A DNA stretch of 64,000 nt from Tessaracoccus palaemonis (GTDB lineage: Bacteria; Actinomycetota; Actinomycetes; Propionibacteriales; Propionibacteriaceae), in the NCBI RefSeq assembly GCF_019316905.1, contig NZ_CP079216.1, positions 2,170,001 through 2,234,000 on the forward strand. The letters run 5' to 3'. Shown here one piece after another: positions 36,695 through 57,908 of this stretch. A program made the translations under genes and the position numbers. The notes beneath the pieces are model-generated. The model worked only from the letters and a program-made list of their open reading frames with translations. It ran no database searches and was not told where the DNA came from. Numbering within the stretch: position 1 is the first letter of the stretch; each line of letters starts with the position of its first letter.

Positions 36695-37693
36695 TCAGAC
36701 GATCCGGTACGGCTCGGCGGGTGCCTGATCGATGATCCCGGCCTGCGTCAGGAACTCGCCCATGGCTGCGAAGGCATCGGTGTCGACGGTGACGTCGACC
36801 GTGCCGTCCTTCAGCCACAGCTCCGTGGTGGCGGCCAGCACCTTCTCCGCCACGGCCCGCTGCTCGGCCTCCGCGAGCGCGGGCACCTGCTCGGCCGTGG
36901 CGTCCAGGGCGGCCTCGGGATCGTCGATCACGGCCTGCTCCGCCTGCTTCATGCCCTCGGCCAGGGCGGCCAGGGTCTCGTCGGAGAGGGAGTCGCCGCT
37001 GGAGACGAGGCTCGGGCCGACCAGCGTCGGGGAGTCGGGGTCGGAGACGGGGATGGACGTCACGTCGCCGCCGGTGGCCTGCAGCTGCACGAGCTCGTTG
37101 TTGTGGAAGCCGACGATGAAGTCCACCTGGTCCGCGGCCAGCGCGGAGAGCTGCGTGTAGCCGATGTCCTGCAGCGTGACGTCGTCCTCGGTGAGCCCGG
37201 CCTGATGGATCGCGGCGAGTGCCGCGTAGTAGCTGGAGCCGTAGTGACCCGGGATGCCGAGCGTGTGTCCCTTGAGGTCGGCCAGGGTCGCGCCCTCGAT
37301 GGCGCGGTCGGTCATCACCTCCGCGGGGAACCGCTGGTAGCTGGTGGCGAACGTCTGCAGGTCCTGCCCGGCCGCCGCGGCGACCATCGCCTCGTCGGCC
37401 GACGCGAACACGACGTCCTCCTGGCCGCCGAGGAGGGCGCCGAACACGTCCTCCTGCTCGCCGTGGTGGCGCAGCGTCACGTCCAGCCCGAGGTCCTCGA
37501 AGATGCCCTGTTCGACGCCGACGTAGAAGGCGCTGAACTGGACGTTCGGGATGTAGCTCAGGCCGACGGTGACGGGCGTCAGGTCGACGGCCGATGCGGA
37601 GGCCTCCGGCTCGGGGCCGGCGGAGCAGGCGGTCAGCGGCGCGACGGCGAGCGCGGCGGCTACGGCGAGGGCGGGAAGGCGGCGGTTGATCAT
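36695..37693 (-). CDS. Substrate-binding lipoprotein, NMT1/THI5-like (RibY-type candidate)
   Basis: A 332-residue extracytoplasmic binding protein. A signal peptide ends in the lipobox LTAC (Cys23), so it is membrane-anchored. The mature part has the NMT1/THI5 fold (VGLSYIPNVQFSAFYVG near 43-59, then GQEDVVFASAD). These proteins bind thiamin pyrimidines, nitrate-like ligands or, in RibXY systems, riboflavin. The FMN riboswitch upstream of its operon favours a flavin. It overlaps the permease stop by 4 bp. ATG 37693 begins the signal peptide; the open frame continues far upstream in a shadow. Confidence 0.88.
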   Translation of the reverse strand: MINRRLPALAVAAALAVAPLTACSAGPEPEASASAVDLTPVTVGLSYIPNVQFSAFYVGVEQGIFEDLGLDVTLRHHGEQEDVFGALLGGQEDVVFASADEAMVAAAAGQDLQTFATSYQRFPAEVMTDRAIEGATLADLKGHTLGIPGHYGSSYYAALAAIHQAGLTEDDVTLQDIGYTQLSALAADQVDFIVGFHNNELVQLQATGGDVTSIPVSDPDSPTLVGPSLVSSGDSLSDETLAALAEGMKQAEQAVIDDPEAALDATAEQVPALAEAEQRAVAEKVLAATTELWLKDGTVDVTVDTDAFAAMGEFLTQAGIIDQAPAEPYRIV

Positions 37694-38517
37694 GTGGTGA
37701 CTCCTTGTAGTCGTCTGACAGCTGCGCGTTCCGCGATCGAGACGATCCCGTAGAGAGCCATCGCCACGAGGGCGATCCAGGCGACCACGGCGAACACCGA
37801 TGCGGTGTCCGCCGTCTGCCGGGAGATGGTGAGGAGTGTGCCCATGCCGGATCCGCCCATGACCATCTCGCCGACGACCGCGCCGGTCATCGCGAGCGCC
37901 ATCCCGCCGCGGACCCCTGCCAGCACCGCGGGGGCCACCATGGGGCCCTCGATGTGCCACAGCCGCTGCGGGAAGCTGGCGCCGTCGAGCAGCGCCGTCT
38001 CCACCACTCGCATGTCGAGGGACCGGAGCCCGACGACGGTGGTGGTGATCATCGGGAAGAAGGCCACGATCGCGCACAGGACGGCGATCGGGACGGTGCC
38101 GTAGCCGAGCCACAGGACCAGCAGCGGCGCGATGGCCACCAGCGGGACGGTCTGCGACAGGGCGACGAACGGCTCGAGCACCGCGGCCAGCGGCCGCGAG
38201 TGCGCGATGAGGATGCCGACCGGGATGGCCACGGCCACCGCGATGAGGGCACCCAGCAGGGCTGCGGAGATCGTCGGCGTGAGGTACCTCCACGCCACTC
38301 CGCTGGACAGCTGCGAGACCATGCGGGCAGCCACGTCCTCCGGACCCGGCAGGTAGAGCGGAGCCACGAGGCCCCCGGCCGTGACCGCCCACCAGATGGC
38401 GAGCAGCAGGGCGGCGGCGACGGTGGCGGGGACCCAACGACCGGTGCCCGGTCGGGTCCTCGCGGGGTAGGCGGACCACAGGCCGGCGCCTACGCGTCGC
38501 CTCATCGTGGTGGTCAT
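37690..38517 (-). CDS. ABC transporter permease (RibX-type candidate)
   Basis: A 275-residue inner-membrane permease of the BPD type. About six helices and the EAA loop, which reads ETALLDGASFPQRLWHIEGP (about 168-187), are clear; the latter contacts the ATPase. It follows an FMN riboswitch and has GGAGGAAGG before ATG 38517. The next gene is the binding protein, but no ATPase gene is present in this window, so the cassette protein must come from elsewhere. Flavin import is the best reading. Confidence 0.9.
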   Translation of the reverse strand: MTTTMRRRVGAGLWSAYPARTRPGTGRWVPATVAAALLLAIWWAVTAGGLVAPLYLPGPEDVAARMVSQLSSGVAWRYLTPTISAALLGALIAVAVAIPVGILIAHSRPLAAVLEPFVALSQTVPLVAIAPLLVLWLGYGTVPIAVLCAIVAFFPMITTTVVGLRSLDMRVVETALLDGASFPQRLWHIEGPMVAPAVLAGVRGGMALAMTGAVVGEMVMGGSGMGTLLTISRQTADTASVFAVVAWIALVAMALYGIVSIAERAAVRRLQGVTT

Positions 38518-38593
38518 CTACCCCGTCCTTCCTCCAGGTCCGGGGTGCGCGCGAACGGCAGGCGCGCAGACACAGCTGTGCCCACGCTGCCGC

Positions 38594-38727
38594 GCGGCGC
38601 GTTCCTCCCATCCAGACTTTCACTGTCGGTCTCGGAATTCCACCGAGTCAACCTGGCCTGGCCGAAGCCTGACAAGGGTCGCGGACTGTCACCGCCGGTT
38701 CGGACTTACACCGACCCCGGAACACGT
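38594..38727 (-). ncRNA. FMN riboswitch (RFN element)
   Basis: Read on the minus strand, the element shows the conserved RFN core: GTCGGTGTAAGTCCGAACCG, then GGCGGTGACAGTCCGCGA, and further on GGTGGAATTCCGAG, CCGACAGTGAAAGTC and TGGATGGGAG. The closing stem forms between CGTGTTCC and GGAACGCG. It ends 76 nt before the permease start. FMN binding would shut off the flavin-uptake genes. The Shine-Dalgarno for the permease lies in that gap, so translational control is possible. Confidence 0.93.
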
Positions 38728-38764
38728 GCCTGACAGGTTACCAGCCCTCGCCGCCGAGCCGCCG

Positions 38765-43556: not shown

Positions 43557-44402
43557 ATGGCACAGCCCGGATGGTACGCGGACCCCTCCGCGCCCGACGG
43601 TCGGCGCTACTGGGACGGTGAGCGCTGGATCGAGGAGACCCCACAGCGCAGAGGGCCGAGGGCGTGGCTGTGGCTCATGATCGCCCTGGTGGTGGTCGCC
43701 GCGGTCGTCGTCGCGCTGGTGGTGCTGCCCGGATCGTCGAACCCCTTCGCGGCCGTCCCCGAGGACACCAGGAGCGCCCGCCCCACCGGGACGCAGTGGA
43801 ACGAACTCGAACCCACCGAGACCCCGTCGCCGACGGCGGTGGAGACGGGTTTCGGCGAGCCCATCGACTGCCCGGTGGCCGAGGACTGGCCACGCAGCGA
43901 GGTCGTCGACGGCAGGCTGCACGGCGGCGGGCTGTCGATCGATGTGCCCACCGGATCCCAGTGGGAGGCTGACCCCGCCTACATCGACTGGCTGTGGGAC
44001 AACAACTCGATGATCCGCCCGATCGCGACGGGGTGGATCAGCAACGTCGGCGTCGGGTACATCAAGGTCAGCGACGGGTTCTCCGACGACCTTTCGACCG
44101 CCGCCGAGCAGTTCGTCACGTGCATGTCGTCGTCCGGCATGTTCACCGGCTTCACCAAGCGGGAGATCCTCCGCGACGAGGAGTACAAGGTCTCCACCCG
44201 CATCGGGTGGCGGCTGACGAACAATGTCTACGTGGGCAACCAGCTCTACCAGGGCATCCAGGGCGACGTCGTCGACATCATCCTCGTGCCCACGGACGAC
44301 AAGGACCGGATCGCGGTCTACGTGTCGTGCGTGACGATCGACCATGCGGAGAACGCGGCAGAGGTGCAGCACTCGCTGGACTCGCTCCGCTGGGACGGGT
44401 GA
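43557..44402 (+). CDS. DUF2510 membrane protein
   Basis: A 281-residue actinobacterial protein. The short N-terminal DUF2510 motif GWYADPSAPDGRRYWDG (about 5-21) precedes a single transmembrane helix (about 38-60). A Thr/Pro/Glu-rich linker and an extracellular domain of about 170 residues with two Cys follow. DUF2510 is thought to be a cytoplasmic sorting or interaction module; the outer domain is not recognised. It lies 24 bp before map and 78 bp after the glnA2 region. Confidence 0.85.
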   Translation: MAQPGWYADPSAPDGRRYWDGERWIEETPQRRGPRAWLWLMIALVVVAAVVVALVVLPGSSNPFAAVPEDTRSARPTGTQWNELEPTETPSPTAVETGFGEPIDCPVAEDWPRSEVVDGRLHGGGLSIDVPTGSQWEADPAYIDWLWDNNSMIRPIATGWISNVGVGYIKVSDGFSDDLSTAAEQFVTCMSSSGMFTGFTKREILRDEEYKVSTRIGWRLTNNVYVGNQLYQGIQGDVVDIILVPTDDKDRIAVYVSCVTIDHAENAAEVQHSLDSLRWDG

Positions 44403-45325: not shown

Positions 45326-46135
45326 GTGATCCCGCCCGCGCGCCATGTCTCCAGCCATCTGCAGGTGCAGGTGAGGTCCACCGCCGACCTGGTCTTCTCC
45401 GTGGCGGTGAGCGGCGACCATCCCGGCCTCAGCGAGGGCCTCGTCTTCCGGCTCGACGGCGAGGAGATCGAGGCGGAGGAACAGCTCGACTCGTCCCGCA
45501 GCCGCCTGCACCGCCTGCGGGAGACGCCTCCAGGGACCCTCACCGTCGACTACGAGGCGGACGTGCCGCAGCCCGCGCCGGCCGCGCAACTGCAGGGTAT
45601 CGACGAGATCCTCTACACCCGGCCGTCGCGCTACTGCGACTCCGATCGGCTCGCCAACCTCGGCGCGACGCACTTCGCGGGCCTGACCGGCTACGAGCTG
45701 ATGAGCGCCGTGACGCAGTGGGTCCGCACCAAGGTCAGCTACCAGCCCGGCTCGAGCCGCGTCGTCGACGGCGCGCTCGAGACGTACCTCAGCCGGGTGG
45801 GCGTGTGCCGCGACTCGGCGCACCTGGTGATCGCATTCCTGCGCGGGCTGAACATGCCCGCCCGGCTCGTCTCCGTGTACGCGCCCGGCCTGGTTCCGAT
45901 GGACTTCCACGCCGTCGTCGAGGCGTGGCACGACGGCGCCTGGCACCTGCTCGACGCCACGGGGCTGGCCCCGCGCGACTCCATGGTGCGCATCTGCACC
46001 GGCCGCGACGCCGCCGACACGGCCTTCATGACGACGCTGGCCGGCAGCACCCGGCTGCGTCGGATCAAGGTGGACGCGCGCGTCGACGGCGAGCTCCCCT
46101 ACGACGACAAGTTCAGCTTCAGAACGCTCAGCTGA
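45326..46135 (+). CDS. Transglutaminase-like cysteine protease superfamily protein 1
   Basis: A 269-residue transglutaminase-like protein with the Cys-His-Asp triad: C161 (GVCRDSAHL), H195 (MDFHAVVEAW) and D210 (HLLDATGL). The N-terminal 80 residues are a beta-rich transglutaminase N domain. Such proteins may cleave or ligate peptide bonds; the target is unknown. It is convergent with a second transglutaminase-like gene, sharing 37 bp at their 3' ends. GTG 45326 has TACCCT 6 nt upstream. Confidence 0.9.
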   Translation: MIPPARHVSSHLQVQVRSTADLVFSVAVSGDHPGLSEGLVFRLDGEEIEAEEQLDSSRSRLHRLRETPPGTLTVDYEADVPQPAPAAQLQGIDEILYTRPSRYCDSDRLANLGATHFAGLTGYELMSAVTQWVRTKVSYQPGSSRVVDGALETYLSRVGVCRDSAHLVIAFLRGLNMPARLVSVYAPGLVPMDFHAVVEAWHDGAWHLLDATGLAPRDSMVRICTGRDAADTAFMTTLAGSTRLRRIKVDARVDGELPYDDKFSFRTLS

Positions 46136-47055
46136 GGGATGTCGTCGCCCGTCATGGGGACGACGTCGACGCCGACGCTCAGCTTCGACGTCTCGGCGTC
46201 GGTCACCACGATGCCGCGCAGCGGCGACACATCCGCGAAGTCCCGTCCCCACGCCGTCACGAGGTAGCGCGAGTCGGCGTACTGGGCGTTGGTGGGGTCG
46301 ATGTCGACCCAGGTGCCGTTCGGCGCCAGGACGGAGACCCAGGCGTGAGTGGCGTCGGAACCCTCCAGTTTGGCCTTGCCGGGCGGCGGCTGCGTCTCCA
46401 GGTAGCCGGACACGTAGCGCGCCGGGACCCCGAGGCGCCGCAGGATGGCGATGGCGAGATGCGCGAAGTCCTGGCACACCCCGGCACGCAGGTCGAGGAG
46501 CTCGTCGACGGTGGTGCGCACGGAGGTGGCGCCCGGCCGGTAGGCGAAGTCGCGGTGGATGCCGCGGGTCAGCTCAGCCAGCGCCTGCCCGAAGCCCAGG
46601 TCGGGCGCGAGGATCGTCTCCATGTAGCTCACGAGCCGCGGCGGGATCGAGACGTGCCTGCTCGGCAGCCCGAACATGGCGCGGTCGAGCGCCAGCGCCG
46701 GGTTCTCCGCGATGGCCCGCTGGGCCGAGGCGAGCGTCCAGCGGTTGAGGAGCTCCACGTCGACCTCCGGCCATGTGACGTCGACCACGGCCTCCTTCAC
46801 TACCTCGAGGTGGAGCGTCGGCTCGTGGATCTCGAAGTAGTGGCTCACGTTGCCGAACCGGTCGATGTGCTCGGTGTGCAGCAGCGGGTCGGGGCTGACG
46901 CGTACACCGTCGACGAGCACGCGCTGACTCGGCGCCTCGCGGGGCGTCAGGAAGCCGCGCTCGTGGCACGCCGTGACCGGCTCCGGCCAGACATAGGAGG
47001 TGCGGTGCTTGACGAAGTACCGCCTGAGGGTGAGATTCTCCGACCGCTGCCTCAT
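46099..47055 (-). CDS. Transglutaminase-like cysteine protease superfamily protein 2
   Basis: A 318-residue protein with N-terminal beta domain (about 10-120) and transglutaminase core: C194 (GVCQDFAHL), H237 (SDATHAWVSV) and an Asp in WVDIDPTN (251 or 253). It starts inside the stop of the ATP-grasp/alpha-E gene (4-bp overlap), so they are co-translated. In other bacteria this trio recurs, sometimes with Anbu proteasome-like peptidase, and has been proposed to make or break peptide tags; none has been proven here. It overlaps the convergent transglutaminase 1 gene. Confidence 0.9.
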   Translation of the reverse strand: MRQRSENLTLRRYFVKHRTSYVWPEPVTACHERGFLTPREAPSQRVLVDGVRVSPDPLLHTEHIDRFGNVSHYFEIHEPTLHLEVVKEAVVDVTWPEVDVELLNRWTLASAQRAIAENPALALDRAMFGLPSRHVSIPPRLVSYMETILAPDLGFGQALAELTRGIHRDFAYRPGATSVRTTVDELLDLRAGVCQDFAHLAIAILRRLGVPARYVSGYLETQPPPGKAKLEGSDATHAWVSVLAPNGTWVDIDPTNAQYADSRYLVTAWGRDFADVSPLRGIVVTDAETSKLSVGVDVVPMTGDDIPQLSVLKLNLSS

Positions 47056-49541
47056 CGGTGGCCCTCCGCCGCGCCCGACCAGTCCGTGAGCGTCGGCCTG
47101 CGGGGCGCGGACCTGGTGAGGTGAACGCGGCCGAGCTCGTCGGCGATCTCACGCAGCTCAGTGCGTTGGTCGGCGAAGCAGCCCGCCAGCGCGGTCCGGT
47201 CCGGCGTGGAGAAGAACAATGCGAAGTCGGTGTCGACGATGGCGCCGCACTGCGCGGCGACCCGGTCGGCGAGCCGCTGGTCGCCGATGAGGCGCAGATC
47301 GTCGACGAGCCTGTCGAGCTGGAACGCGACGCTGCGGGGGTTGATGCGGTCGGCGACGAGCAGCTGCGTTGCGCCGAGGCCGGGCTGCCGCGGCCCCTCG
47401 CCGGCGGCCGAGCGACGCCGGTGCGTGATGAGCGACTCACCCATCTCGAGGATCGCCTCGGCCAACTGGTTCTCCACGACCGCCGCCCTCTCCCGGCCGA
47501 GCGCGAAGCCGACGAGGCTCAGCATGCGCTGGGCCCGCTCCAGCCTCACGCCCGCGTCGACGAAGGCCCAGGTCACGTCGCGGGTCAGCGACTCGTTGTT
47601 GATGCCGGCGAGGGCCAGGGTCGAGCTCACCAGAGCGTCGAGCACACCGGTCAGATCGCGGCGCCGGGCGGCGTCGCCGACGAGCTGCTCGAGCTGGCTG
47701 AGTACCTGCCACAGGTCGCCGGACATGAGGTCGGGGACCTCGTGGGCGGCTGCTGTCAGGCGTCGGACGGCGTGCGCGACGGATCCCTTGAGGTCGCGGT
47801 CGCTGATGGCCAGCCGGATGAACCTGTGGGCGTCGGCGATGCTGTCGCTGCCCAGCGGGAGGCCGGTGATCCGCTCGCCGGTGGCCAGCACCGCCTCAAG
47901 CACCTGGGCGCCGAGCGACTCGGGCCGACGGCCATGGTCGAGGGCCAGGTCCAGCGCGAGGCGGAGGAGGCGTGCGTTCGCGTCGGCGCGCTCGCTGTAG
48001 CGGCCGAGCCAGAGCAGGTTGTCGGCGATGCGGGGCGCCAGCGCCGCGGCGCGACGCAGGACGACGGGGCCGCCCTCGAACGTCGGGGTCCAGGTCTCGA
48101 CGATGTCCTCGGCGTCGAGGACCCACACGTCCTTGGCCAGCCGCGGCCCGTCGAAGGCGAGCATGGCCGCGTCGTGGGGGGTCATCAGGGCCAGCCCCCC
48201 CGGAAGGAACTGGTGGGCGTGGTTGACCTGGGCCCCGAAGGCTCGCAGCACCAGCCGGTTGGGGATGAGACCCTCATCGGCCACGACGGGGGCGGTCGAG
48301 AGTTCGAAGGGCTGCTGGCCGACCCAGGCCCACGGCTCGGCAGCGATACGGGCGGCCAGCTCCGATCGCTCGGCCGCCGAGAGCGTCCAGCCCTGGTGGC
48401 TCTCCCCGTGGATCGAGACGATCCGGAGCTTGGCGAGCTTCTTCGTCACGTGCGACAGCGAGCCGGCGTCGCCGCACCACCAGCTGGGCAGCGAGGGCAG
48501 GCTGAGTTCCTCCCCGAGAAGCTGCGGCGCCAGCGACTCCAGGTACGGCTGCAGAGCCGGGCTCTCCGTCACGCCACTGCCCAGCGGGTTGGCCGCGACG
48601 ACGTTGCCCAGCCGCGTGGATTCCAACAGCCCGGCGATGCCCAGCTGGGAATCGCTGCGGAACTCGAGCGGGTCCACCATGTCGGAGACGACGCGGCGGA
48701 GGATCACGTCGACGAGGGTGCGACCCTCGGGCGTGTTGATCCAGACCTGTCCGTCGCGCAGCACCAGATCCTCGGCCTCGACGAGCGCGTAGCCGAGCAG
48801 CGTCGCGATGAAGCCCTGCTCGTAGGCCGTCGCGTCGTCGACCCCCGACCAGAGCAGCACGCCCTTGGGCGTGTGTCCCGCGCGGGGCGCGAGCTGCTGA
48901 AGGCCCGCGCGCATCGCGGAGAAGAAGGAGCGGTAGCGCGCGGGGCGGGCGTCATGGTGCAGGTCGCCCATCACGCGGGAGGTCAGCCTCCGGTTGGTCA
49001 TGGCGTACCCGATGCCCGCCGGGGTGGCGGTGCGGTCGGCCAGCACGGTCCAGGCGCCATCCGGGCCGCGCCCGAGGTCGGCGCTCACGATCGGCAGCCA
49101 CACGCCGCCGGGGACGCTGACGCCACATGCCTGCGGCAGGAAACCGGAGTGCCCCCACACGATCTCGGCAGGCAACGCACCGGAGGACAGGAGCCGCTGT
49201 TCGCCGTAGAAGTCGTCCAGCAGGAGCCCGAGCAGCCGGGAACGCTGTTCCAGTCCCTTCTCGACACGGCGCCATTCCTCGGCTCCCAGGACGATCGGGA
49301 GCGGGTCGATGGCCCAGCTTCTGGCGTCGCCGCCGCCGTAGAGGATGCCCTCATCGCGCACCAGCGAACTCATCTCCGAGCGCGCGGCCAGCATCCCGCG
49401 GAGCCCGAGCTCCTCGACGGCCTCGGAGAGAAGGCGCTGGTCAGCACGCACTCCGGACGCAGCGAGCAGCTCGTCCCAGCCGCCGGTCAGGCGGGAGCGG
49501 TAGCCGACGAGTTCGCTCGTCACGGTCGCGTCAGCTGTCAC
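47052..49541 (-). CDS. Circularly permuted ATP-grasp / alpha-E fusion protein
   Basis: An 829-residue fusion. Residues about 1-480 match the circularly permuted ATP-grasp family (DUF404/407; motifs DEGILYGGGDAR, RVMGDLHH and WGHSGFLPQ are visible), and about 500-815 match the helical alpha-E domain (DUF403; NLLWLGRYSERADANARL). In many genomes these are separate adjacent genes. ATP-grasp enzymes form amide bonds, so the product could be a peptide ligase partnering the transglutaminase encoded next. The physiological reaction is unknown. GTG or ATG choice near 49541 is not critical to the domain. Confidence 0.9.
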   Translation of the reverse strand: MTADATVTSELVGYRSRLTGGWDELLAASGVRADQRLLSEAVEELGLRGMLAARSEMSSLVRDEGILYGGGDARSWAIDPLPIVLGAEEWRRVEKGLEQRSRLLGLLLDDFYGEQRLLSSGALPAEIVWGHSGFLPQACGVSVPGGVWLPIVSADLGRGPDGAWTVLADRTATPAGIGYAMTNRRLTSRVMGDLHHDARPARYRSFFSAMRAGLQQLAPRAGHTPKGVLLWSGVDDATAYEQGFIATLLGYALVEAEDLVLRDGQVWINTPEGRTLVDVILRRVVSDMVDPLEFRSDSQLGIAGLLESTRLGNVVAANPLGSGVTESPALQPYLESLAPQLLGEELSLPSLPSWWCGDAGSLSHVTKKLAKLRIVSIHGESHQGWTLSAAERSELAARIAAEPWAWVGQQPFELSTAPVVADEGLIPNRLVLRAFGAQVNHAHQFLPGGLALMTPHDAAMLAFDGPRLAKDVWVLDAEDIVETWTPTFEGGPVVLRRAAALAPRIADNLLWLGRYSERADANARLLRLALDLALDHGRRPESLGAQVLEAVLATGERITGLPLGSDSIADAHRFIRLAISDRDLKGSVAHAVRRLTAAAHEVPDLMSGDLWQVLSQLEQLVGDAARRRDLTGVLDALVSSTLALAGINNESLTRDVTWAFVDAGVRLERAQRMLSLVGFALGRERAAVVENQLAEAILEMGESLITHRRRSAAGEGPRQPGLGATQLLVADRINPRSVAFQLDRLVDDLRLIGDQRLADRVAAQCGAIVDTDFALFFSTPDRTALAGCFADQRTELREIADELGRVHLTRSAPRRPTLTDWSGAAEGHR

Positions 49542-49601: not shown

Positions 49602-49972
49602 CGCGGACGAGACGGCCAGATGATCGCGGCTGGAGACAGCTGAGGAAAGTCCGGACTCCACAGAGCAGGGTGGTGGGTAACGCCCACCCGGGGTGACCCG
49701 CGGGACAGTGCCACAGAAAACAGACCGCCTGGCGACAGGTAAGGGTGAAACGGTGGTGTAAGAGACCACCAGCATCCCAGGTGACTGGGATGGCTCGGTA
49801 AACCCCACTCGGAGCAAGACCAAGAAGGTCGACCCCAGGGTCGGCTGCGGACGCCGCCTGAGCGCTGCTCGCGCGAGGCGCCCGGGTAGGTTGCTTGAGC
49901 CCCATGGCGACACGGGGCCTCAGATAGATGATCATCCGTCGACAGAATCCGGCTTACCGGCCGTCTCGTCCC
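49602..49972 (+). ncRNA. rnpB: RNase P RNA (type A)
   Basis: Catalytic RNA that matures tRNA 5' ends. Recognised by GGAAAGTCCGGACTCCACAG (near 49645), the ACAGAAAACAGACCGCC segment, GGTAAGGGTGAAACGGTG, the GAGACCACCAG stretch and the closing P1/P4 partners CAGAATCCGG and GGCCGTCTCGTCC near 49946-49972. Its 371-nt length is usual for actinobacterial type A. Ends are estimated from P1 pairing and may be off by several nt. Confidence 0.96.
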
Positions 49973-52713: not shown

Positions 52714-52830
52714 TGGTCCGGCGGCGTCCTAGTCTCCCACAGCGTCCCCGCTGCAGTACCATCGGCGCTGAGAAGCTTAACTTCCGGGTTCGGGATGGGA
52801 CCGGGTGTTTCCTTCTCGCTATGACCACCG
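52714..52830 (-). rRNA. rrf: 5S ribosomal RNA
   Basis: About 117 nt recognised by the segment whose minus-strand reading includes GGTGGTCATAGCGAGAAGG, with the conserved loop CCGGGTTCGGGATGGGACC on the plus strand. It is the last gene of the 16S-23S-5S operon; ends are approximate. Confidence 0.93.
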
Positions 52831-52915
52831 AAACATTTATTGAACTGTATCACGAACAACCCTGCCGGCCACAAACCCGAGGGTTGTGGTGCGGGGGTTG
52901 TCTCGATCGTTGTTC

Positions 52916-52951
52916 GAGACATTACACAGTGGACGCGTAGCATCTTTGTAG
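52916..52951 (-). other. 23S processing stem, 3' strand
   Basis: Complementary, with few interruptions, to 56063-56096 on the other side of 23S. It would form the long stem cut by RNase III during rRNA maturation. Confidence 0.7.
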
Positions 52952-52954
52952 AAG

Positions 52955-56056
<3,102 letters not shown>

Positions 56057-56058
56057 AA

Positions 56059-57908
<1,850 letters not shown>

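Follow-up and report, generated by a model that had tools for sequence, protein, structure and literature searches.

A degenerate ATP-grasp/alpha-E fusion protein encoded with two transglutaminase-like proteins in Tessaracoccus palaemonis

A 64,000-nucleotide stretch of Tessaracoccus palaemonis DNA (here called the window) encodes a fusion of an ATP-grasp and an alpha-E domain (FUS) together with two transglutaminase-like proteins (TG1 and TG2). The locus is a variant, without an amidoligase gene and with TG1 present, of a widespread cassette that contains a conserved pseudo-ATP-grasp. The three open reading frames agree in strand and coordinates with those of a first-pass annotation of the same DNA, as do the 4-bp overlap between FUS and TG2 and the arrangement in which one transglutaminase gene faces the other across shared 3' ends. 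The features of the locus are as follows.

45326..46135, + strand: TG1, 269 amino acids, transglutaminase-like protein of the PDB 3isr type (open reading frame, Pfam, and a 3isr match with E 1.6e-35)
Codons 45806-45808, 45908-45910, and 45953-45955, + strand: TG1 triad, Cys161/His195/Asp210
46099..47055, - strand: TG2, 318 amino acids, Bact_transglu_N and Transglut_core domains (open reading frame, Pfam, and structure model)
Codons 46474-46476, 46345-46347, and 46297-46299, - strand: TG2 triad, Cys194/His237/Asp253
47052..49541, - strand: FUS, 829 amino acids, pseudo-ATP-grasp fused to alpha-E (open reading frame, Pfam, motif counts, and structure model)
48189..49298, - strand: CP_ATPgrasp_2 domain of FUS, residues 82-451, with degenerate catalytic motifs (Pfam and alignments)
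48990..49040, - strand: altered metal-site loop, FUS residues 168-184, ADRTATPAGIGYAMTNR (intact paralog, EDNVRCPSGVSYVMTNR)
48387..48428, - strand: remnant of the Lys/Gly-rich ATP loop, FUS residues 372-385, LRIVSIHGESHQGW (intact paralog, LVVKPVDGSGGKGI)
47124..48038, - strand: alpha-E domain of FUS, residues 502-806, with the ER motif retained (WLGRYSER, 511-518; ER, 668-669)
47052..47055, - strand: ATGA, 4-bp overlap of the FUS stop and the TG2 start
46099..46135, both strands: 37-bp tail-to-tail overlap of TG1 and TG2

Pfam upholds the earlier domain calls for all three proteins. FUS matches CP_ATPgrasp_2 over residues 82-451 (E 7e-116, profile positions 1-371 of 374) and Alpha-E over residues 502-806 (E 3e-47), TG2 matches Bact_transglu_N and Transglut_core, and TG1 matches Transglut_core. 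The structure model of FUS (mean predicted local distance difference test score [pLDDT], 89) aligns with PDB entry 3n6x over 443 residues (Z 42.3; root mean square deviation [rmsd], 3.0) and with E. coli Gss, entry 2ioa, over 355 residues (Z 21.1; rmsd, 4.0). Profile and 3n6x match together place FUS in the CP_ATPgrasp_2 fold family, and the helices at residues 503-807 of the model, with the ER motif, make its C-terminal part a member of the Alpha-E family. Foldseek returned no clear PDB match for the Alpha-E fold among its top chains, a weak search in that the query was the whole fusion.

Intact members of the ATP-grasp family carry the motifs LEDN..R.PSGVSY, KP..GSGG.G, and DLRPF, while FUS of the window has LADRTATPAGIGY, VSIHGES, and VLRAF at the same places. 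A168-x-R170 replaces the E-x-N metal pair, V375 stands where the ATP lysine should be, and no Gly-rich loop is left (VSIHGES versus KPVDGSGG in the intact paralog), so that FUS lacks both the magnesium ligands and the nucleotide loop that mark an active ligase. In E. coli Gss the E-x-N pair is E330 and N332, which we take to be the magnesium-binding residues, and the lysine is residue 533. An hhalign alignment of FUS with the single Gss sequence gave no match, and the two proteins were matched by motif order, residue numbers, and fold. The FUS pair probably occupies the position of E163/N165 in Cp1B, a fungal relative for which alanine at R139, D141, E163, or N165 is reported to have abolished or significantly attenuated activity (PMC12568646). 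FUS thus shares the Gss/glutathione synthetase fold with Gss, 3n6x, and Cp1B but is devoid of their E-x-N metal ligands and ATP loop. Because these ligands and this loop were lost, along with the ATP lysine, though the fold was kept, FUS is unlikely to form bonds and is very probably not a ligase. The bond-forming role that the first-pass annotation had assigned to the ATP-grasp part is not supported. That annotation had also named degenerate active sites in all three proteins as the outcome that would undo its proposal; degeneracy was found in FUS and not in TG1 or TG2, both of which have intact triads.

The motif loss extends well beyond this genome. With two sequence patterns, one of which, P[SA]GxGY[AV][LM][EA]N, sits inside the altered loop, 80 loci were fetched (the best 80 of at least 589). 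Sequences were assigned as FUS or unfused ATP-grasp by best BLAST hit, with the window itself (L015) and the frameshifted loci of one genus-mate genome (G008) excluded. E and N were each retained in 0/96 FUS rows and in 36/36 unfused rows, the latter representing 35 distinct genes since the unfused gene of T. palaemonis is present twice (L012 and L037). In FUS, E is replaced by A (47 rows), G (18), S (17), D (8), N (4), K (1), or T (1), and N by R (86), W (8), or H (2). A pattern-independent recount of 26 FUS rows obtained by other routes, plus the window, again gave 0/27 for E and 0/27 for N; 16 of these 27 rows are also among the 96, and the set includes close relatives. In a tree built without the motif columns, a branch with a Shimodaira-Hasegawa-like approximate likelihood ratio test support of 100 separates 78 fused from 24 unfused rows (a quick method, applied to 102 of 131 rows after thinning). 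Judged from alignments and tree, the FUS rows form one old clade, and the motif loss is clade-wide.

Fusion as the cause of this degeneracy was ruled out. In two genomes of one family (L141:2070-4280, - strand, and L142:2106-4313, - strand), an ATP-grasp part that keeps LEDN is fused to alpha-E, with a transglutaminase gene adjoining; a Gly-loop search pattern gave no match in either. These fusions are independent of the FUS clade, and since they keep LEDN intact, degeneracy tracks the clade and not the fusion. Fusion is the usual state of the FUS clade and is not the notable feature that the earlier reading had made of it. Divergent FUS-like genes are found in four actinobacterial loci of one family (L151 to L154, family f31), where they come after unfused ATP-grasp and alpha-E genes and where the Gly-rich-loop region is mostly or, in L151 and L152, wholly missing in the alignment. 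The L151 protein (genome G121), in which no alpha-E motif was found, scores slightly higher against the unfused query and was assigned to FUS by position and motif.

The altered loop, D-R-T-Q-A-P-S-G-x-G-Y, is the top-conserved 15-residue stretch in a 50-row alignment of the pattern-derived set, a rank that is inflated because the fetch pattern falls within the loop; in the pattern-independent set it came fifth, with a score of 0.74 (best, 0.75; mean, 0.49). The other conservation peak of FUS is the alpha-E ER motif. In 8 of the 10 FUS rows from the phylum draw, W, L, or F stands in place of R in this loop. Ratios of nonsynonymous to synonymous substitution rates (dN/dS) against the window genes were calculated within the genus group, that is, the genus of the window plus L051 (Tessaracoccus sp. 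MC1679, the best named match; FUS, 64 percent), which we infer to be a single genus. They were 0.26 to 0.50 for FUS, 0.23 to 0.39 for TG2, and 0.18 to 0.42 for TG1 (seven comparisons each), and 0.13 to 0.22 for the intact ATP-grasp (six comparisons). On these ratios all four genes are under purifying selection, which is weaker on FUS than on the ligase.

FUS is bound to TG2 by gene order. In 74 of the 80 loci TG2 lies directly downstream of FUS on the same strand; TG2 is on the opposite strand in L110 and L123, the fetched sequence ends too early in L075, L095, and L128, and L068 has no TG2. This order supports the coupling of FUS to TG2 that the first-pass annotation had seen in their overlap, and it is very likely that the two proteins work together. 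FUS, TG2, and a convergent TG1 occur together in the nine other FUS loci seen in the genus group (eight genomes, one with a broken FUS, plus L051), which, with the FUS-TG2 order in the 74 loci, argues that the arrangement is not due to chance. In the genome with the broken FUS (G008, 60 percent complete; L026, L031, and L044), the gene is spread over several frames through either decay or sequencing error. In another locus (L024; G035:C1), FUS lies inside a 2360-amino-acid stop-to-stop frame.

Upstream of FUS, 54 of the 80 loci carry a gene for a transglutaminase-DUF2126 amidoligase (GIANT; DUF2126 has the Pfam label “putative amidoligase” in the three examples scanned), which gives the cassette order GIANT-FUS-TG2. 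In Mycobacterium tuberculosis, we take Rv2567 and Rv2569c to be the members of this cassette other than Rv2566, with Rv2569c as the presumed mycobacterial TG2, judging by how the genes are arranged in L110 and L123. Proteins of the Rv2566 type are described as joining a transglutaminase-like domain to a domain of the carboxylate-amine ligases (PMC2588565). In some loci of different phyla (e.g., L065, L074, L077, L084, and L089), unfused ATP-grasp and alpha-E genes precede GIANT-FUS-TG2 to make five genes in a row, and an unfused ATP-grasp gene lies within the fetched locus in 18/80. The window has the fused protein followed by TG2, and thus resembles the cassette in these two proteins, in their order, and in the degenerate motif; it differs in the added convergent TG1 and in the amidoligase. 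Of 62 FUS-bearing genomes examined, 42 encode DUF2126 (PF09899), whereas a PF09899 search gave no match in the T. palaemonis genome or in any of the genus group's 10 genomes with FUS. The statements of the first-pass annotation that related clusters recur in bacteria and that their product is unknown both hold. The missing DUF2126 amidoligase, together with a motif-complete paralogous set elsewhere in the genome, is more notable than the fusion or the absence of an Anbu protease, to which that annotation had drawn attention.

This paralogous set (L012; G000:C1:796-799 kb, ~1.4 Mb from the window) consists of the same ATP-grasp, alpha-E, and transglutaminase families as the window locus; here they are three separate genes, and the ATP-grasp retains every family motif. 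The set is presumably the counterpart of Rv2411c-Rv2409c. For the transglutaminase of the unfused set, the active site is gapped in 16 of 20 aligned rows. Genomes with FUS nearly always have an unfused ATP-grasp as well. Among 41 relatives, FUS occurs in 12, all 12 of them with an unfused ATP-grasp, and the unfused ATP-grasp occurs alone in 4. For 50 of the 80 loci, from 34 isolates and 16 metagenome bins, a profile search of the FUS genomes found a second circularly permuted (CP) ATP-grasp in 48 of 50, the motifs being read in part of these second proteins. In a draw of 197 Actinomycetota genomes, CP-ATP-grasp genes were present in 49 and FUS-clade genes in 10 (T. palaemonis included; the 18 regions fetched were chosen mainly for frames of >700 amino acids, so a shorter or broken FUS could be missed), with an unfused ATP-grasp in 10/10. 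LEDN was read in the second ATP-grasp of seven of these genomes (G000, G121, G128, G200, G209, G239, and G244), and G161, G183, and G233 were assigned by score alone. Fisher tests of the co-occurrence ignore relatedness. Genomes of another family (f20; G101, G116, and others) have short CP-ATP-grasp genes, most in frames of 460 to 560 amino acids scoring ~240 to 325 bits, sometimes two or three per genome.

Both window transglutaminases belong to the transglutaminase-like superfamily by their Cys-His-Asp triads, which are conserved in TG2 (Cys 92/92, His 92/92, Asp 91/92) and in TG1 (Cys 17/17, His 16/17, Asp 17/17). The nearest solved structure to either protein is 3isr from Cytophaga hutchinsonii, whose entry title reads merely putative cysteine protease. 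The TG2 model (pLDDT, 93) aligns with it over 264 residues (Z 28.3; rmsd, 2.4). Next come eukaryotic transglutaminases, the best of which aligns over 187 residues (Z 9.6; rmsd, 14.6), and TgpA, which aligns over 194 residues (Z 8.8; rmsd, 5.5). The modeled fold would be compatible with hydrolysis and transfer alike and does not decide between them. TG2, encoded directly behind FUS, is a putative Cys-His-Asp peptidase, amidase, or transamidase, and the potential for bond breaking that had been ascribed to the transglutaminases is consistent with the intact triads.

We tentatively favor an explanation in which FUS is a conserved, catalytically retired ATP-grasp paralog and assists TG2 as a partner for recognition or regulation, or as an adaptor. 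The genes, the motif loss, its clade-wide retention, the co-occurrence, the intact triads, and purifying selection are observed; a common transcript, a binding role for FUS, a shared substrate, and the direction of the transglutaminase reaction are what the explanation would add. First, the motif-complete unfused ATP-grasp and alpha-E pair would make an amide-linked, peptide-like product or tag, as suggested by its family. FUS may then bind this product or its carrier in a remodeled cleft, in which arginine replaces a metal ligand, while its alpha-E domain may dock the partner. Finally TG2, and TG1 as another enzyme with its fold, would hydrolyze or exchange the amide bond and release ammonia or an amine. 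In such a make-and-break system, breaking or exchange would fall to the window locus and making to genes located elsewhere (the intact ATP-grasp and, in other genomes, also DUF2126). We consider it probable, with less assurance than for the FUS-TG2 partnership itself, that FUS-TG2 and the intact unfused set act in the same pathway. A partner acting in trans is supported by the second CP-ATP-grasp in 12/12, 48/50, and 10/10 FUS genomes. The report of Rv2569c as a protease (PMC11081392) is also counted in favor, given its presumed identity as TG2.

Several observations weigh against this explanation. The ATP lysine is V in the window, yet K is retained in 71/96 FUS rows, and D at the third metal position is retained in 84/96, for which reason some FUS members may still bind nucleotide without chemistry. 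FUS also evolves faster than the intact ATP-grasp, as the dN/dS ranges indicate. A second ATP-grasp was not found in 2 of the 50 FUS genomes, the metagenome bins G079 and G085 (which hold L072 and L111), and DUF2126 was likewise not found in G085. According to PMC11081392, Rv2569c is a cell-wall protease that acts on casein and E-cadherin and responds to inhibitors as a serine-type enzyme would, which fits poorly with the invariant Cys of TG2 and an intracellular partner. Proteins of a Yersinia Anbu operon, where ATP-grasp and alpha-E are separate, were co-expressed and reportedly showed no specific interaction with Anbu (PMC6376114).

FUS could instead be a pseudoenzyme activator that joins the intact ATP-grasp and alpha-E in a mixed complex and thereby turns the ligase on or off, while TG2 only trims the product. 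We regard this as unlikely, though it would agree with the second CP-ATP-grasp in nearly all FUS genomes and with the unfused pair directly before GIANT-FUS-TG2 in some loci, and prozyme offers a precedent for a dead paralog of this kind (PMC5201418, PMC6221367). The two sets are far apart in the T. palaemonis genome, an unfused ATP-grasp lies inside only the 18 of 80 fetched loci mentioned above, and FUS adjoins TG2 and not the ligase.

TG1 might also be an unrelated neighbor that came to lie here by chance and is perhaps expressed with map, 50 bp ahead of it. Its opposite strand fits such an origin, as does the rarity of TG1-like genes, present in 10/80 loci and in two of these 5.6 and 8 kb away. 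TG1 is, however, kept in the nine other FUS loci of the genus group and is convergent also in Nocardioides (L053). FUS, TG2, and TG1 are consecutive on one strand in L144/L158 (one genome; TG1, 50 percent identity), from which we take TG1 to belong to the set, and likewise in L060 (34 percent). A chance neighbor is accordingly another unlikely explanation, of much the same standing as the activator.

Conservation of the altered loop invites two further proposals. In the broader and rather doubtful one, the lost metal site became a conserved active or ligand-sensing site, D-R-T-Q-A-P-S-G-x-G-Y, across a pseudo-ATP-grasp family with records named from many phyla, and with the partner transglutaminase would form a new amide-exchange or sensing module, not a ligase. 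In the narrower, which is improbable, the loop itself would enable a new function, be it acyl transfer without ATP, phosphate transfer, or the sensing of nucleotides. The loop is conserved at the level of the best FUS stretch, unlike a merely dead site, and N has become R in 86/96 rows; ligand or partner binding can equally explain such conservation, and R itself gives way to W, L, or F in 8 of the 10 FUS rows of the phylum draw.

The original view of FUS as an active amide ligase whose product TG2 removes is very unlikely to be right. Domain identity and Pfam score are in its favor, as are the D and R adjoining the metal site, retained in 84/96 and 95/96 FUS rows, and the report that the ATP-grasp of a Yersinia Anbu operon releases phosphate from ATP (PMC6376114). 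Both E and N ligands are absent in every FUS row counted, however, the Gly loop is lost, the window protein has no ATP lysine, and the alignment shows no loop region at all for L151 and L152.

Anbu operons combine ATP-grasp, alpha-E, and transglutaminase genes with Anbu, and thus share three domain families with the window; in them ATP-grasp and alpha-E are separate, while the window has a degenerate fused protein. A PF00227 search of the T. palaemonis genome (E ≤ 0.1) gave two genes only, those for the actinobacterial 20S beta and alpha subunits. There is no Anbu gene beside the window genes or elsewhere in the genome, the locus is not an Anbu operon, and a partnership with Anbu was rejected. 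The first-pass annotation was thus correct that an adjacent Anbu is absent. Its view that this is notable did not stand, because none is annotated near FUS in any of six plasmid FUS loci (from an incomplete gene table; the 80 loci were not searched for Anbu), and the absence does not look special. That the set adds a peptide tag which sends proteins to a protease, as the gene content of Anbu operons (PMC5666114, PMC6376114) and the 20S proteasome of this genome might suggest, is most improbable in view of the missing Anbu, the lost ligase site, and the lack of room between the genes for a small tag gene.

Published hypotheses for sets of ATP-grasp, alpha-E, and transglutaminase trace to Iyer et al. 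2009 and are unconfirmed according to PMC6376114, and the Anbu operon papers likewise describe the same three families with function unconfirmed (PMC5666114, PMC6376114). We found no statement that the fused ATP-grasp is inactive in the literature covered, to which Iyer et al. 2009 did not belong, so that one may well be in print. A related case is the rlo operon of Pseudomonas aeruginosa, which also pairs an ATP-grasp with a transglutaminase-type partner and has one inactive member; there, the inactive member is the membrane-bound transglutaminase, and the ATP-grasp is 24 percent identical to RimK (PMC12239564).

The name given to FUS in annotations, “circularly permuted type 2 ATP-grasp protein,” implies a ligase. 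Should the fused clade prove to be a pseudoenzyme, hunts for a FUS ligation product target the wrong protein; the intact paralog and the DUF2126 amidoligase would be the ligase candidates, and FUS-TG2 the recognition or removal arm. Links to nitrogen limitation make the question testable in laboratory strains. In Burkholderia, a DUF404/407, DUF403, and transglutaminase cluster (I35_5080-83) is listed among the common targets of NtrC and sigma-54 (PMC5491218), and in Pseudomonas putida a proteasome-like gene and a CP-ATP-grasp gene are reported as upregulated on nitrate versus ammonium (PMC8050072). Metagenome correlations have linked urea metabolism to these domains (PMC3597751).

Inside the cluster, there is no room for a small tag or precursor-peptide gene, the genes overlapping or being ≤ ~70 bp apart; a distant precursor was not sought. 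The gene order around the window locus is that of L051, FUS-TG2-TG1-map-DUF2510-glnA, and the DUF2510 protein encoded between glnA and map, beside TG1, is common to both (43557-44402, + strand, in the window; 15118-15960 in L051). ARAGORN found no tRNA in the whole window. An FMN riboswitch (38596-38728, - strand) overlaps the listed start of the open reading frame at 36695-38623, and an rRNA operon (16S, 23S, and 5S) lies at 52716-57907 on the - strand. A class A RNase P RNA (49608-49972, + strand) runs opposite to FUS and begins 66 bp from the FUS start, and FUS and RNase P RNA thus necessarily have a very short promoter region in common.

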